This document shows positions 20,423 through 23,800 of a DNA stretch of 32,950 nucleotides, piece by piece. Location: assembly GCA_020073615.1 (NCBI GenBank), contig JAIQEX010000076.1:1-32950 (forward strand), in the 5' to 3' direction. The notes under the pieces were generated by a model. That model was not told the origin of the DNA. It made no database searches and worked only from the letters and a program-made list of their open reading frames with translations. The translations under genes were made by a program, and so were the position numbers. Positions within the stretch are counted from its first letter, which is position 1. Each line of letters starts with the position of its first letter. This stretch comes from Terriglobia bacterium. Lineage in GTDB: Bacteria > Acidobacteriota > Terriglobia > Bryobacterales > Bryobacteraceae.

Positions 20423-21661
20423 CTATTGGGTTGCGGCGCCCTGGACCAGCCCGTGGGAGCAGCGGATCTTCTCGAAACGGTAGCGTCCGAGGCTCGGCAG
20501 ATACAGGTCGCCGGTTTCTTCGTAGTTGTTCGCGTAGCACCCGCCCGGATAGTCCGCGGCGATGCCGCACTTCTCGCAATTCTCCTTGACCCGGAAAGCA
20601 GTGGCGAACTCGAAGCGGTGCCGGAAATGAGTCAGTCCGAATTCCACGTCACCCAATTTCTTCACCAGGTTCACGCTGTTCAATCCCAGGATGGTGGCAC
20701 AAGCCGAGATCTCTCCGGTGGTGGATACCGTCACGGCATTCCGCCCGGCACGGCAGCCGAACACGCCATGGCTGGCCTTGCCTTCGAAGTCGCCGGTAAG
20801 CCGCACTTTCGGCGCTTCCCGGTCCCGCCACTCCAGCACGCGCCGGAGTTCGCTCCCGTAGAAGTCCATCAGATCGTCCGGCCAGTCGGAGCCGATGGCC
20901 GCACCCACCAGGAAGCTTCGCACGCCGAGCTTGTGAAGCCCCACTATGTCGTCGTAGAAGCGCGGCACATTCCGGGGCATCACGGTCATGCGGACGCCCA
21001 CGTAGTTATGTTTGCGGAATACCAGTTCGATGGCGCGCCCGACGCGGGCAAAACTGCCATTGCCCGCGTGGTCGACGCGGCAGGAATCGTGCGATTCGGC
21101 GAGCCCGTCCACGCTCAGCAGCGGCAGAATGCCGTGGGCGGCGAAGAAGTCGAGCGTCTCCTCCGTGAGCAGGGTTCCGTTGGTTGTAATATCGAACCGG
21201 ACTTTCTTGCCCGCGGCGGCAACCCGCTTCCCGGCATACGCGACGCAATCCTGCATGACACCGAAATTCATCAGGGGCTCGCCCCCGAATAAGCAGAGGT
21301 AGAGCTTTTCGGCCTTGCCCGAGTAATCCACCAGGAAATCGACGGCGGCGCGGGCCGTTTCGGCCGTCATCTCGTGTTTCACGGTCATGCGCCGCTCAAA
21401 GCAGTACGTACAGGCGAGCGTGCACCGGTCCGTCATCATCAGGTCAACGGTGTTGATTGCGGGGAAGTAAGCGGCATTCAGGTCCAACACAATTCTGCGC
21501 AGGAACCTTCGCGCTTCGTCCTCGCCGAGAACGAGCTCGTTGCGCACTTCCCGGCACAGCGCTGCGGCATCCGGAGACTCGGAGATCAGCGCGCCTTCAA
21601 TCTTCTTGGTCACGGCAACCAACTGCCGGCGAGACGTCCCTTTCGTGATCGTTTGCCTCAT
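20423..21661 (-). CDS. radical SAM/SPASM peptide-modifying enzyme (candidate RiPP maturase)
   Basis: 412 residues from the ATG at 21661, which has AAGGTG 6 nt upstream; an in-frame ATG further out lies in the leader. The radical SAM cluster motif is C80-T-L-A-C84-T-Y-C87-F, followed by the SAM-binding G-G-E-P at 126-129. The C-terminal SPASM domain has Cys303, Cys321 (in G-E-I-S-A-C), Cys362, Cys365, Cys375 and Cys401, enough for auxiliary clusters, though one or two fewer than the fullest SPASM set. Family members make thioether or carbon-carbon links in ribosomal peptides or oxidise sulfatases. Here no sulfatase is nearby, and four divergent genes encode small Cys-rich peptides, which points to a peptide maturase. 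The N-terminal ~65 residues may bind a leader. Confidence 0.9.
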   Translation of the reverse strand: MRQTITKGTSRRQLVAVTKKIEGALISESPDAAALCREVRNELVLGEDEARRFLRRIVLDLNAAYFPAINTVDLMMTDRCTLACTYCFERRMTVKHEMTAETARAAVDFLVDYSGKAEKLYLCLFGGEPLMNFGVMQDCVAYAGKRVAAAGKKVRFDITTNGTLLTEETLDFFAAHGILPLLSVDGLAESHDSCRVDHAGNGSFARVGRAIELVFRKHNYVGVRMTVMPRNVPRFYDDIVGLHKLGVRSFLVGAAIGSDWPDDLMDFYGSELRRVLEWRDREAPKVRLTGDFEGKASHGVFGCRAGRNAVTVSTTGEISACATILGLNSVNLVKKLGDVEFGLTHFRHRFEFATAFRVKENCEKCGIAADYPGGCYANNYEETGDLYLPSLGRYRFEKIRCSHGLVQGAATQ

Positions 21662-21705
21662 CGCGCACCTTTTCCCGTAAACTCGCCGCCCGAGGCGCAA
21701 ATCGC

Positions 21706-21727
21706 CGCACATCATAAACGATGTGCG
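21706..21727. promoter_or_regulatory. hairpin in the radical SAM mRNA leader
   Basis: CGCACATC (21706-21713) and GATGTGCG (21720-21727) form a perfect 8-bp stem with a six-base loop, ATAAAC on the + strand. It lies about 45 nt upstream of the start codon and within the predicted transcript. Confidence 0.4.
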
Positions 21728-21761
21728 CGGGCGCTGAATTCATCCGAAAAAAAATCCTGGA

Positions 21762-21777
21762 CGGATAATATCATCCG
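21762..21777. promoter_or_regulatory. palindrome overlapping the radical SAM -10 box
   Basis: CGGATAATATCATCCG matches its own reverse complement at 14 of 16 positions. A further CATCCG half-site occurs at 21741-21746. The position over the -10 box makes it a candidate operator; no regulator gene is adjacent. Confidence 0.45.
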
Positions 21778-21793
21778 ATTATCTGTAAGTCAA
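21765..21793 (-). promoter_or_regulatory. promoter of the radical SAM gene
   Basis: On the minus strand TTGACT (21793-21788) and TATTAT (21770-21765) are separated by 17 bp, 5/6 matches to each sigma-70 consensus. The predicted start near 21758 leaves a ~97-nt leader. Confidence 0.6.
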
Positions 21794-21821
21794 TAGAAAA
21801 TGCGACATGCAACGCACCGGC

Positions 21822-21843
21822 CGGTCGAACGGGCTTTCGACCG
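21822..21843. promoter_or_regulatory. 8-bp hairpin in the divergent region
   Basis: CGGTCGAA (21822-21829) and TTCGACCG (21836-21843) are perfect arms around six bases. It lies between the two divergent promoters and outside both predicted transcripts, so it is more likely a protein-binding site than an RNA structure. Confidence 0.3.
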
Positions 21844-21982
21844 CCTTCGTACCCCCCTATTATCGTGAGTTAGTAGTCCATTCTTTCCCTTCGCGCCAGA
21901 GGCGCCACAAAGGCGACTGCGGCTCGTTACACAGGAACTTACGAAGGCATTTTGAGAATTTAGGGAGACACTTACAATAGCA

Positions 21983-22011
21983 TTGACACGCCGCAAGGTT
22001 TCGGTTAGTAT
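21983..22011 (+). promoter_or_regulatory. promoter of the Cys-rich peptide gene cluster
   Basis: A perfect TTGACA (21983-21988) is followed after 17 bp by TAGTAT (22006-22011). It faces the peptide genes, and no other promoter as good is visible before 22247. Confidence 0.6.
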
Positions 22012-22017
22012 CGCTGT

Positions 22018-22246
22018 GTTTAATTTATTTCAGGTTTTAGTGCCTTAACGCCTGCATCCATACGGCCGGTGCCTTGCCGGCCGCTGGCGAGGCGAACTCC
22101 GCCGGTCCCGCACGCCGACGTGCGTCCGAATGGCCCGCGGCCGGCACCGGAACCGTCCGGCGGCATGCACCCGAACACCGGAGTTGTGCCCGGGAAAGCT
22201 GCCGGGGCACCCGGCGGCAGCCGTCAAGCAACGAAAGGAGAATCCC
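22018..22246 (+). other. long structured leader of the peptide cluster transcript
   Basis: About 229 nt separate the predicted transcription start from the first peptide gene. The leader contains complementary GC-rich segments: CCGGTGCC near 22065 pairs with GGCACCGG near 22141, and GCCGGCCGC near 22076 pairs with GCGGCCGGC near 22136. It contains no convincing gene. A regulatory fold is possible; no known riboswitch is recognised. Confidence 0.35.
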
Positions 22247-22516
22247 GTGAAAAACATGGCAAAGCCCCCCTCGGATCTTTCGAGTGAGGTGACCGATACC
22301 CTTCGGAGGCGCAACTTCCTGCGTGGCCTGGCCTATGCGGCAGGCGGAGGGGCCCTGGCCTTGCTGGCGGCGCGCCGCGCCAAGGCCTATGACGAGGACT
22401 GTCCGCAGAAGTTCAGCTGCGACAAGCCCGTGAGCTGCAGCTCACCGTTTACCTGCGATGACAATGCGTTTACCTGCAAGCCGGATTATAAGAAGGCCGC
22501 CGAGGACGCAGCCTGA
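22247..22516 (+). CDS. Cys-rich peptide with Tat-type leader, precursor 1
   Basis: 89 residues starting at GTG (22247), chosen because AAGGAG lies 7 nt upstream; a longer in-frame ATG at 22130 would read through the structured leader. Residues 20-47 are L-R-R-R-N-F-L-R-G-L ... A-A-R-R-A-K-A, a twin-arginine leader with a hydrophobic stretch and an A-x-A end. The predicted mature part, 48-89, has Cys52, 58, 64, 70 and 77, i.e. C-x5-C-x5-C-x5-C-x6-C, with F-S-C-D and P-F-T-C-D and a tail D-Y-K-K-A-A-E-D-A-A. This is the first of four paralogues divergent from the radical SAM gene. Most likely its substrate; alternatively an exported metal-binding or disulfide peptide. Confidence 0.85.
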   Translation: MKNMAKPPSDLSSEVTDTLRRRNFLRGLAYAAGGGALALLAARRAKAYDEDCPQKFSCDKPVSCSSPFTCDDNAFTCKPDYKKAAEDAA

Positions 22517-22522
22517 TCGGGT

Positions 22523-22541
22523 CCGCGGCCTCCGCCCGCGG
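22523..22541. terminator. hairpin after precursor 1
   Basis: CCGCGG (22523-22528) pairs with CCGCGG (22536-22541) over seven bases, just after the stop codon. There is no U-tract, so read-through to precursor 2 is expected. It may set the relative mRNA levels of the paralogues. Confidence 0.35.
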
Positions 22542-22614
22542 AATTGAGACGCGCCAGTCCAGAGCTGAGTTGGCGCCGTGTGGCCCTCATTGGCGCGGCT
22601 GGCGCCATCCGCGG

Positions 22615-22644
22615 GCCGGCCGCTTCGGGAGACTCGCGGCCGGC
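22615..22644. terminator. hairpin between precursors 1 and 2
   Basis: GCCGGCCGC (22615-22623) and GCGGCCGGC (22636-22644) are perfect 9-bp arms with a 12-nt loop. The rest of the ~200-bp gap between precursors 1 and 2 holds no gene. Confidence 0.4.
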
Positions 22645-22716
22645 GCCGGGCCGGGCGTGAGTGTTTCGTGTGCTCGACGCCCGGCAGGCACGATGGGGAC
22701 GAAAGGAGAAGTCAAA

Positions 22717-23016
22717 ATGAATGATACGCAAGGCCAGCATGCCGCCGCGCAAAATATCGATGTCGCGGCCGGAACGATGGCCCGATGGTTGCGCGGGCGC
22801 CGTGGTTTTCTCGGCTCGCTCGCGACGGCGGCTGGCGCGGCCGCCTTACTCGTAGGGGGAGCTGGCAAAGCGTGGGCCAGCGATACCTGCGACAAGAACT
22901 TCATATGCGACCAGAACCATAAGTGCAACCTGCCGTTTCAGTGCAACAACTTCTCGGAGTTCTGCGACGCGCAGGGGTTCTTCCGGGCGCCGCAGAAGGA
23001 AGAAGAAGAGGACTGA
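22717..23016 (+). CDS. Cys-rich peptide with Tat-type leader, precursor 2
   Basis: 99 residues; the ATG at 22717 follows AAAGGAGA by about 7 nt. The leader has an N-terminal extension of ~25 residues, then R-G-R-R-G-F-L-G-S-L-A-T-A-A-G-A-A-A-L-L and an A-W-A site at 52-54. The mature part (55-99) has Cys58, 64, 70, 76 and 83, the same C-x5-C-x5-C-x5-C-x6-C spacing as precursor 1, with N-F-I-C-D and P-F-Q-C-N. The tail is strongly acidic (K-E-E-E-E-D). The hydrophobic stretch after RR-x-F-L is consistent with Tat export; modification by the divergent radical SAM enzyme is inferred. The leader Cys-free / core Cys-rich split is clear. Confidence 0.85.
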   Translation: MNDTQGQHAAAQNIDVAAGTMARWLRGRRGFLGSLATAAGAAALLVGGAGKAWASDTCDKNFICDQNHKCNLPFQCNNFSEFCDAQGFFRAPQKEEEED

Positions 23017-23080
23017 TAAGCCGTAGTAACAGACGGTAGGAGAACGTACTGTCGATTCAAGAGAAAGCGAAGGAGTCTTT

Positions 23081-23356
23081 ATGGAGAATACAAGCGTATC
23101 CGAAGCGGTTGCGGCAGGAGTGTCCCACCGGCTTCGTAACCGGCGCAAGTTTCTGAGCGCGCTGGCTGCGGCTGCCGGCGCGGCAGGCTTGGCGACGTTG
23201 GGCGCGCGCAAGCTCAAGGCCGATTCCTGCGATGGCAACTTCACATGCGACCAGGGTTACCATTGCACGCCTACCTTCAACTGCAAGGGGTTCACTCGAT
23301 CGTGTACACCCCCGTACAAGAGCCAGGAGGAGGAGGAAGAGGAAGTATATGGCTAG
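23081..23356 (+). CDS. Cys-rich peptide with Tat-type leader, precursor 3
   Basis: 91 residues; the ATG at 23081 follows AAGGAG by 5 nt. The leader contains R-N-R-R-K-F-L-S-A-L-A-A-A-A-G-A-A-G-L and ends L-K-A at residue 47. The mature part (48-91) has Cys50, 56, 62, 68 and 75, again C-x5-C-x5-C-x5-C-x6-C, with N-F-T-C-D and T-F-N-C-K, then T-P-P-Y-K and a run of six Glu. It lies 64 bp after precursor 2. The core differs from the others at most non-Cys, non-Phe positions, a pattern usual for variable cores under a conserved leader in RiPP families. Confidence 0.85.
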   Translation: MENTSVSEAVAAGVSHRLRNRRKFLSALAAAAGAAGLATLGARKLKADSCDGNFTCDQGYHCTPTFNCKGFTRSCTPPYKSQEEEEEEVYG

Positions 23357-23406
23357 TATCGCCGGCAGGCCGCCTCGCCGATAGCCGGTCTGACCTGGCG
23401 GGCGTG

Positions 23407-23471
23407 CCTTCCGCCGGGCGATGCGGGCTCGCGCCGCGCATCGGCCGAAGGTCGAATTGCCCGGCGGAAGG
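23407..23471. terminator. large hairpin between precursors 3 and 4
   Basis: CCTTCCGCCGGGC (23407-23419) is the exact reverse complement of GCCCGGCGGAAGG (23459-23471). A second nested stem GATGCG/CGCATC begins right inside it. A stem this strong in the 171-bp gap could attenuate transcription or block RNA decay; no U-tract follows. Confidence 0.5.
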
Positions 23472-23527
23472 TCTGTTCGTTCAACCGAAGACGAAGAGGA
23501 ATATTACACAACTAAGGAGGAACTAAT

Positions 23528-23800
23528 ATGTCAAAGGACATCGCGGATACCATCGCTCAGGCGGTGGGCAAGACTCTGCGGAGGCGCGGATTCCTGAAAG
23601 GAGTAGGCGCGAGTCTGGGTGCGGCGGCACTGGGCGTGGTAACGCAACGCCGGGCCCGGGCGATGGAGTCCTGCCAGGGTTTCACCTGCGATCCGCAGCC
23701 CCACAAATGCAGCGACCCATTCACCTGTGTGGGTACGACTTACAACTGCTCGGCACCGTTTAAGAACCCGGCTGCCCAGGAGGACGAGGAGGCCAACTGA
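23528..23800 (+). CDS. Cys-rich peptide with Tat-type leader, precursor 4
   Basis: 90 residues; the ATG at 23528 has an ideal TAAGGAGG upstream, the strongest ribosome binding site of the four. The leader reads L-R-R-R-G-F-L-K-G-V-G-A-S-L-G-A-A-A-L, the closest of the set to the Tat consensus, and ends A-R-A at residue 45. The mature part (46-90) has Cys49, 54, 61, 67 and 74, so the first two intervals are changed to x4 and x6 while the total span stays 26 residues. G-F-T-C-D and P-F-T-C-V keep the F-x-C motif, followed by A-P-F-K and the acidic tail E-D-E-E-A-N. The shifted second Cys may make it a diverged product. Confidence 0.85.
   Translation: MSKDIADTIAQAVGKTLRRRGFLKGVGASLGAAALGVVTQRRARAMESCQGFTCDPQPHKCSDPFTCVGTTYNCSAPFKNPAAQEDEEAN

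Follow-up and report, generated by a model that had tools for sequence, protein, structure and literature searches.

The locus studied here lies within a window of 32,950 nucleotides (the whole stretch that was analysed) and comprises a radical SAM/SPASM-like gene for a putative peptide maturase on the reverse strand (20423..21715) and, divergent from it, four paralogous small genes (p1 to p4) on the forward strand, each with a strong ribosome site. All parts of the layout in the original prediction, a radical SAM/SPASM gene divergent from four small ORFs, were located as described. The likelier start of the enzyme ORF is the ATG at 21661, which is preceded by GGGAAAAGGTGCGCG and gives a product of 412 aa, because the first ATG lacks a clear ribosome site. 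Promoter-like sites are found 5' of the enzyme gene (21765..21793, reverse strand; TTGACT-17-TATTAT with TG before the second hexamer) and 5' of the peptide genes (21983..22011, forward strand; TTGACA-17-TAGTAT); both are consensus matches only, and the two sites in the region compare with a mean of 0.6 in shuffles. From the second site, about 235 nt of leader RNA would precede p1. A structured 5' leader RNA was considered and dropped (folding z -1.5), and Rfam gave no match at the gathering score. An imperfect palindrome (ACGGATAAT-8-ATTATCTGT; 21761..21786) with 9-nt arms of 89% complementarity overlaps the -10-like hexamer of the enzyme gene and is a possible operator. An ADOP permease (TIGR03434) was also considered as a dedicated exporter and dropped; related genomes commonly encode permeases of this kind.

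The precursor gene p1 (22247..22516) has a GTG start and encodes 89 aa, with a leader that ends in AKA and a core that begins with CPQKFSCDKPVSCSSPFTCDDNAFTC. The leaders of p2 (22717..23016; 99 aa), p3 (23081..23356; 91 aa) and p4 (23528..23800; 90 aa) end in AWA, LKA and ARA, respectively. Every small ORF had been credited with its own ribosome site, and these were found 5' of p1 and p2 (AAAGGAG in both), p3 (GAAGGAG) and p4 (TAAGGAGG). Counting also bore out five cysteines per core and a Cys-free leader in all four peptides; the acidic tail ascribed to them is strong in p2, p3 and p4 but weak in p1. All four leaders contain the twin-arginine signal RR-x-F-L, followed by an A-x-A-like end two to four residues ahead of the first Cys. 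The TIGR01409 Tat model (cut-off 16.7) is passed by p3 (18.6) and p4 (18.0) only, with p1 (13.8) and p2 (13.9) below, and it is the sole NCBIfam or Pfam model for which any of the peptides exceeds the cut-off; the cores have no Pfam match at E up to 10. The same genome harbors a TatC gene (214.4 bits). A dN/dS comparison was dropped because most pairs are saturated, or nearly so, in synonymous changes.

The enzyme passes general domain models only (Radical_SAM and Fer4_12; PF04055 at 60.8 bits) and stays below the cut-off of every NCBIfam model among the 25 listed of 71. Its closest families are PapB, with rSAM_PapB as the best match (204.7 bits, cut-off 340), followed by the nif11-type, QhpD and SCIFF maturases. 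With only Tat matches for p3 and p4, the system is thus named by no curated model, in agreement with the earlier remark that it was not recognised as a named RiPP class. The Pfam SPASM model reaches 13.6 against a cut-off of 21.5. An RRE was not recognised at the N-terminus: Pfam has no match at E<=1 ahead of the radical SAM domain, and a low-confidence structural model (pLDDT 46.7) shows three helices there.

A search by the enzyme alone retrieved a single clear ortholog, with 41% identity and 339 bits (171 for the runner-up), from G1011, a genome in the Planctomycetota sample. The two enzymes form a clade with a support of 100/99 and share their top NCBIfam model, the scores of the G1011 enzyme being 204.6 for PapB, 85.6 for YhhB and 84.4 for DynA. 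About 125 bp upstream of the G1011 enzyme gene and on the same strand lies a gene for a peptide with nine Cys and the same C-x3-[FY]-x-C module as the window peptides. In comparison, two or more modules occur in none of the 1607 small ORFs collected from a further 47 radical SAM loci, most of them covered for about 1.5 kb on each side. This supports the proposal that the enzyme and the peptides belong together. The G1011 peptide has neither a twin-arginine motif nor an acidic tail. Without the twin-arginine motif there, the view in the original prediction that the Tat leader is part of the class definition is not supported, and the family is defined by the module and the enzyme. The likeness of the cores of p1 to p4 to the G1011 peptide was reached by 13, 0, 19 and 16 of 2000 Cys-fixed shuffles, respectively. 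The corresponding values for the leaders (p4 0.013, p1 0.16, p3 0.68, p2 0.99) are not significant, and homology of the window and G1011 leaders was therefore dropped. The enzyme-peptide pairing looks real, and the family is known from two loci.

The DNA pattern for C-x3-F-x-C-[RAN codon]-x4-C-x3-F-x-C-x6-C occurs three times in the window, against an average of 0.00 over 100 shuffles, and the eight C-x3-[FYW]-x-C modules observed were reached by none of 20,000 shuffles in which the Cys were fixed and the other residues shuffled. An aromatic residue occupies Cys+4 at 11 of the 20 Cys of the window peptides and at six of nine in the G1011 peptide, counts attained in 0 and 2, respectively, of 20,000 shuffles with the Cys fixed, and an acidic residue is found there at 0/20 and 0/9. 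With the module, an aromatic comes to stand at Cys-2 as well (11/20 and 5/9), so that +4 is not the sole regular offset. Deviations within the window are the last aromatic of p2 at +5, the first aromatic of p4 at +3, an additional aromatic at +4 of C2 in p3, and the spacing of p4, which has C-x2-F and x5 in place of x3 and x4.

The RS-cluster cysteines (CxxxCxxC; C80, C84 and C87 in the window enzyme) are present in both enzymes. The six later Cys described before apply to the SPASM region (303, 321, 362, 365, 375 and 401 in the 412-aa numbering), but nine Cys follow CxxxCxxC in all. Based on the PapB cluster ligands given in PMC10470005, the AC1 ligands C352, C370 and C421 correspond to C303, C321 and C375, all three of which are kept in G1011. 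The AC2 positions (PapB C408, C411, C417 and C440) are occupied by C, C, Y and Y in the window enzyme and by C, R, F and Y in its ortholog, two and three of the four ligands, respectively, being missing. At positions 371 and 394, where the two enzymes have Y/F and Y, Cys is present in 43/43 other homologs. Judged from this alignment, both enzymes appear to lack a normal AC2 cluster.

Searches for further members returned the two known loci. Among the 250 nearest genomes only the own genome matched the enzyme at E<=1e-40, and G1011 alone matched within its order (62 genomes, 1e-55) and its class (75 genomes, 1e-50). At E<=0.01 a peptide profile matched 23 of 151 genomes, counting the own; the matches in other genomes reach at most 23.3 bits and are mostly over leader positions, apart from four loci (L010, L011, L014 and L017) whose matches extend into the core. 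The core profile matched 11 of 300 genomes (own included), none outside the own genome better than E 0.027. None of the 945 ORFs of 35-200 aa at 39 loci from these profiles (L005-L033, L065-L074) contains two modules. Exact-motif scans yielded 10 stretches in genome contigs and 16 in viral contigs, which were read as chance frames. The viral contigs gave no match by peptide alignment, none for the clade signature GIAAD[YF]xGGC, and two distant relatives (28% and 24%) with the enzyme pair as query; a single-enzyme scan of the genome contigs gave no relative. Plasmids contained no match to the window enzyme at 1e-30; 42 plasmid records matched the G1011 enzyme, and the 20 listed are all <=28.3% and annotated as PeaB, as nif11-type or not at all. 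Neither the G1011 core in plasmids nor the p2 core in phages found a match.

The reading we favour, with moderate confidence, is a RiPP-type system in which an AC2-poor thioether maturase installs Cys-to-aromatic links before Tat export and signal-peptidase cleavage. SAM would be bound in the cytoplasm at the RS cluster, and the thiolate of a substrate Cys would be held at AC1. Abstraction of a hydrogen from a residue C-terminal to the bound Cys would then lead to a thioether ring. PapB links Cys to Asp/Glu at +4, and by analogy the Phe/Tyr at +4 would be the likely acceptor here; we know of no aromatic acceptor for a PapB-type enzyme. In the window peptides such residues follow C1, C3 and C5 for the most part and would thus give about three rings each, with C2 and C4 largely staying free thiols for disulfide or metal. 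The compact peptide would be exported by the Tat pathway and cut by signal peptidase at the A-x-A-like sequence that immediately precedes the core. Export signal and leader removal would then be one element. More tentative is the narrower proposal that natural AC2-less PapB relatives form multiple Cys-S-Cbeta(Phe/Tyr) thioethers within cores of the C-x3-[FY]-x-C type, with the Tat signal serving as the leader here and signal peptidase cleaving it, and that they represent a new RiPP family.

It is rather doubtful, though worth weighing, that the enzyme modifies the peptides to a different product, namely a bond from sulfur to an alpha carbon (sactionine), a bond to the Ser/Thr/Asn next to the aromatic, or a C-C/aryl link as in cyclophane makers. 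Ser/Thr/Asn at Cys-1 (13/20 in the window, 6/9 in G1011) and the [FY]-x-C spacing, whose regularity is similar to that of C-x3-[FY], are compatible with such products, as are partial matches to the sactipeptide maturase RumMC (94.0 bits), to DynA (90.9) and to the cyclophane maker YhhB (80.1). The sactipeptide maker SkfB likewise lacks AC2 according to PMC10470005. Four ranthipeptide- or thioether-type models score far above RumMC, DynA and YhhB, at 152-205 bits; this argument is of moderate weight, because most of each score comes from the catalytic core that these enzymes share.

Exported metal proteins would also be expected to combine Cys-rich cores with acidic tails and Tat signals, and the core profile weakly matches 1fwo, a granulin domain (entry title oryzain beta chain), at E 0.014. 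That the peptides are small, unmodified proteins that leave by the Tat pathway and bind metal or form disulfides, with the radical SAM gene having another role, is nevertheless improbable given the co-occurrence of peptide and enzyme in the second genome, where the peptide lacks Tat signal and acidic tail, and the failure of the cores to match Pfam; the odd Cys counts of all five peptides (5, 5, 5, 5 and 9) are moreover awkward for disulfides alone. The missing third member in the genomes searched could suggest that the G1011 pattern is coincidental and the window an isolated orphan locus, but four intact paralogs with ribosome sites and the rarity of the core likeness in Cys-fixed shuffles make this very improbable.

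What the second auxiliary cluster does in SPASM peptide maturases is not settled; a laboratory PapB without AC2 performs a single turnover only, as reported in PMC10470005. A natural enzyme pair lacking AC2 ligands, with several apparent sites in each substrate, would make the question directly testable; if the narrower proposal above is true, such enzymes would test what AC2 is for. Aromatic acceptors at PapB spacing would broaden the thioether repertoire, and a RiPP leader that is also a Tat signal would unite export with leader removal. No natural example of the latter appeared among the papers listed from the open-licence literature; one of them deals with engineered nisin display.

Among the known systems, QhpD/QhpC (quinohemoprotein amine dehydrogenase) has a related enzyme, but the window enzyme scores 165.6 bits against the TIGR03906 cut-off of 453, and no QhpC-like ORF occurs among the translations around it. 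The own genome carries a separate locus of the QhpD/QhpC kind (L243). The CteB/SCIFF system shares a Cys-rich precursor, and the nearest solved structure by sequence is 5wgg, CteB. The enzyme differs from SCIFF maturases in its score (152.3 bits, TIGR03974 cut-off 425), and no NCBIfam precursor model, Tat models aside, matches the peptides. The name CteB for 5wgg agrees with PMC10470005. According to the same paper, the Twitch enzyme SkfB has RS and AC1 only, as the window enzyme appears to, but its sactipeptide chemistry is at the alpha-carbon. The closest counterpart is PapA/PapB (freyrasin, a ranthipeptide), with the best NCBIfam match, a substrate in which Cys is followed by a regular residue at +4, and identically spaced cluster-ligand positions (RS, AC1 and AC2), whose numbering is shifted by constant offsets relative to PapB. 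It differs in the scores of both enzymes, which fall short of the NF047865 cut-off of 340 bits, in the replacement of the AC2 ligands C417 and C440 by Tyr/Phe and Tyr, in the Tat leader of the window peptides, and in the substrate motif, which is C-x3-D/E for PapB and has an aromatic, never acidic, residue at +4 in the window and G1011 peptides.

The small genes p1 to p4 (22247-22516, 22717-23016, 23081-23356 and 23528-23800, plus strand), each preceded by its own ribosome site, encode peptides that are paralogs and align over their full length with five all-Cys columns. The Cys-rich cores of p1, p2 and p3 share the pattern C-x3-F-x-C-D-x4-C-x3-F-x-C-x6-C, and that of p4 shows x2 and x5 variants of this spacing. 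A four-peptide profile found no further clear relative in 150 other genomes or in the same genome, where eight more matches at E<=10 mainly involve the leader and reach 18.2 bits at best. The core profile (22388-23797) weakly matches 1fwo, an oryzain beta chain entry (E 0.014), perhaps merely reflecting a common Cys spacing.

The window represents the entire contig C22 (32,950 bases) of a genome assembly that is 98% complete (6.96 Mb, 252 contigs). The radical SAM gene (20423-21715) lies on the minus strand, divergent from the four peptide genes, and the group is flanked on one side by an ADOP-family permease (TIGR03434, 854.8 bits); the gene on its other side encodes a carboxypeptidase-regulatory-like domain. 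Promoter-like sites are predicted in both directions of the intervening gap, where an imperfect palindrome (21761-21786) covering the -10-like hexamer of the enzyme gene could be an operator. A largely G+C-rich leader RNA of about 235 nt (22012-22246) would precede p1; its predicted fold is not clearly stronger than that of shuffles (z -1.5), and it has no Rfam match.

The scores of the enzyme for rSAM_PapB (204.7 bits, cut-off 340), nif11-type (180.6, 518.7), QhpD (165.6, 453) and SCIFF (152.3, 425) document its kinship with thioether makers, yet it passes no curated cut-off among the best 25 of 71 families and is thus assigned to none. Among the 250 nearest genomes only its own contains a match at E 1e-40. 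In 396 genomes of its phylum, 44 (its own included) match at 1e-20, the best match outside its own genome showing 36% identity. Many of these matches adjoin small ORFs that we take to be QhpC, and the L035 enzyme, one match tested, exceeds the QhpD cut-off. The second SPASM-type enzyme of the genome (L243:3032-5537, contig C138) also adjoins a QhpC-like ORF, so that the genome apparently encodes an ordinary maturase of the quinohemoprotein type in addition to the divergent enzyme. In genome G1179, an ORF of repeated HGCPNRSK-like units (L237:5954-6274, minus strand) adjoins a PapB-like enzyme on the opposite strand. This ORF might encode a repeat precursor or be no more than a tandem DNA repeat.

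An ortholog was found in Planctomycetota (the phylum of genome G671), where three of 199 sampled genomes match at 1e-32. The strongest, G1011 (E 2.1e-105, 41% identity), reaches 339 bits in blastp, the runner-up among 44 scored loci 171, and pairs with the window enzyme in a tree of 23 enzymes (support 100/99). Two further phyla yielded two matches at 1e-32 (194 genomes) and four at 1e-40 (199 genomes), none above 164.7 bits, and no more members were found in the order (62 genomes) or the overlapping class (75 genomes) of G1011. These samples are a small fraction of known genomes, and other spacings could escape the exact-motif scan of genome_contigs.

About 125 bp upstream of the G1011 enzyme, on the same strand and behind an AAGGAGG ribosome site, lies an ORF of 102 aa that ends in ...CPVDFTCGHQYAACKAFTHSCPSTYSCPGMVLNPDPCGKNFSCGNFSCSEPYTCSGIFKF and contains nine Cys and four C-x3-[FY]-x-C modules. 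The locus was retrieved through the enzyme alone, and its peptide is therefore an independent test of the pairing. Two modules in one ORF were found in none of 1607 ORFs (35-200 aa) of a control set from further radical SAM loci (47 loci with 43 different enzymes, of which four occur twice; 223 kb in total, mostly reaching about 1.5 kb to either side). They were present in 36 of 7117 ORFs at viral-contig loci, as expected because these loci were picked by the motif, and those ORFs look like low-complexity Cys-rich frames. On one viral contig of 223.7 kb (IMGVR_UViG_3300028549_000563; L240:2977-5905), a very Cys-rich ORF of 202 aa lies between an ORF of 464 aa that is radical SAM/SPASM-like and a second radical SAM-like ORF; the three may form a peptide-modifying cassette. 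The enzyme/peptide family is based on two loci, and its chemistry is inferred.

Each of the four window leaders contains RR-x-F-L, and its A-x-A-like end lies two to four residues ahead of the first Cys; the TIGR01409 cut-off is exceeded by p3 and p4 only. TatC is present in the genome. The Tat system transports folded proteins, and such a leader would suit a peptide cross-linked ahead of export. The G1011 peptide has no twin-arginine motif, which suggests that a Tat leader is not a feature of the family as a whole.

PMC10470005 lists as PapB ligands C119, C123 and C126 for the SAM-binding cluster (RS), C352, C370 and C421 for the auxiliary cluster AC1, and C408, C411, C417 and C440 for AC2. 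The spacing of the window enzyme (412 aa) fits exactly, with offsets of 39 for RS, 49 for positions 303 and 321, and 46 for 362, 365, 371, 375 and 394. The last five are C, C, Y, C and Y in the window enzyme and C, R, F, C and Y in that of G1011. RS and AC1 are thus intact in both, whereas of the four AC2 ligands the window enzyme keeps two and the G1011 enzyme one. In an alignment of 45 enzymes, positions 371 and 394 are both Cys in every one of the 43 others, of which 41 or 42 keep each of the five remaining ligands, a few distant rows being less surely placed. The AlphaFold2 model of the window enzyme is poor (mean pLDDT 46.7, two sequences), so the absence of an N-terminal RRE is only suggested. 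Within this set of relatives AC2 loss is unusual, but it has a precedent in other radical SAM enzymes acting on peptides, since Twitch enzymes such as SkfB naturally lack AC2; PapB without AC2 is reported to perform one turnover, and the role of the cluster is described as unsettled (PMC10470005).

An aromatic residue stands at Cys+4 for 11 of 20 Cys in the window peptides and six of nine in the G1011 peptide, counts equalled by 0 and 2 of 20,000 shuffles with fixed Cys positions and all other residues permuted. The window peptides, being paralogs, are not independent cases; G1011 is. Aromatic residues at Cys-2 are about equally regular (11/20 and 5/9; 0 and 36 of 20,000 shuffles). PapB joins Cys to Asp or Glu within C-x3-D/E (PMC9413430), whereas no acidic residue occurs at Cys+4 in the window (0/20) or G1011 (0/9) peptides. 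The cores thus keep the spacing of PapB substrates without the acidic acceptor, with an aromatic residue in its place.
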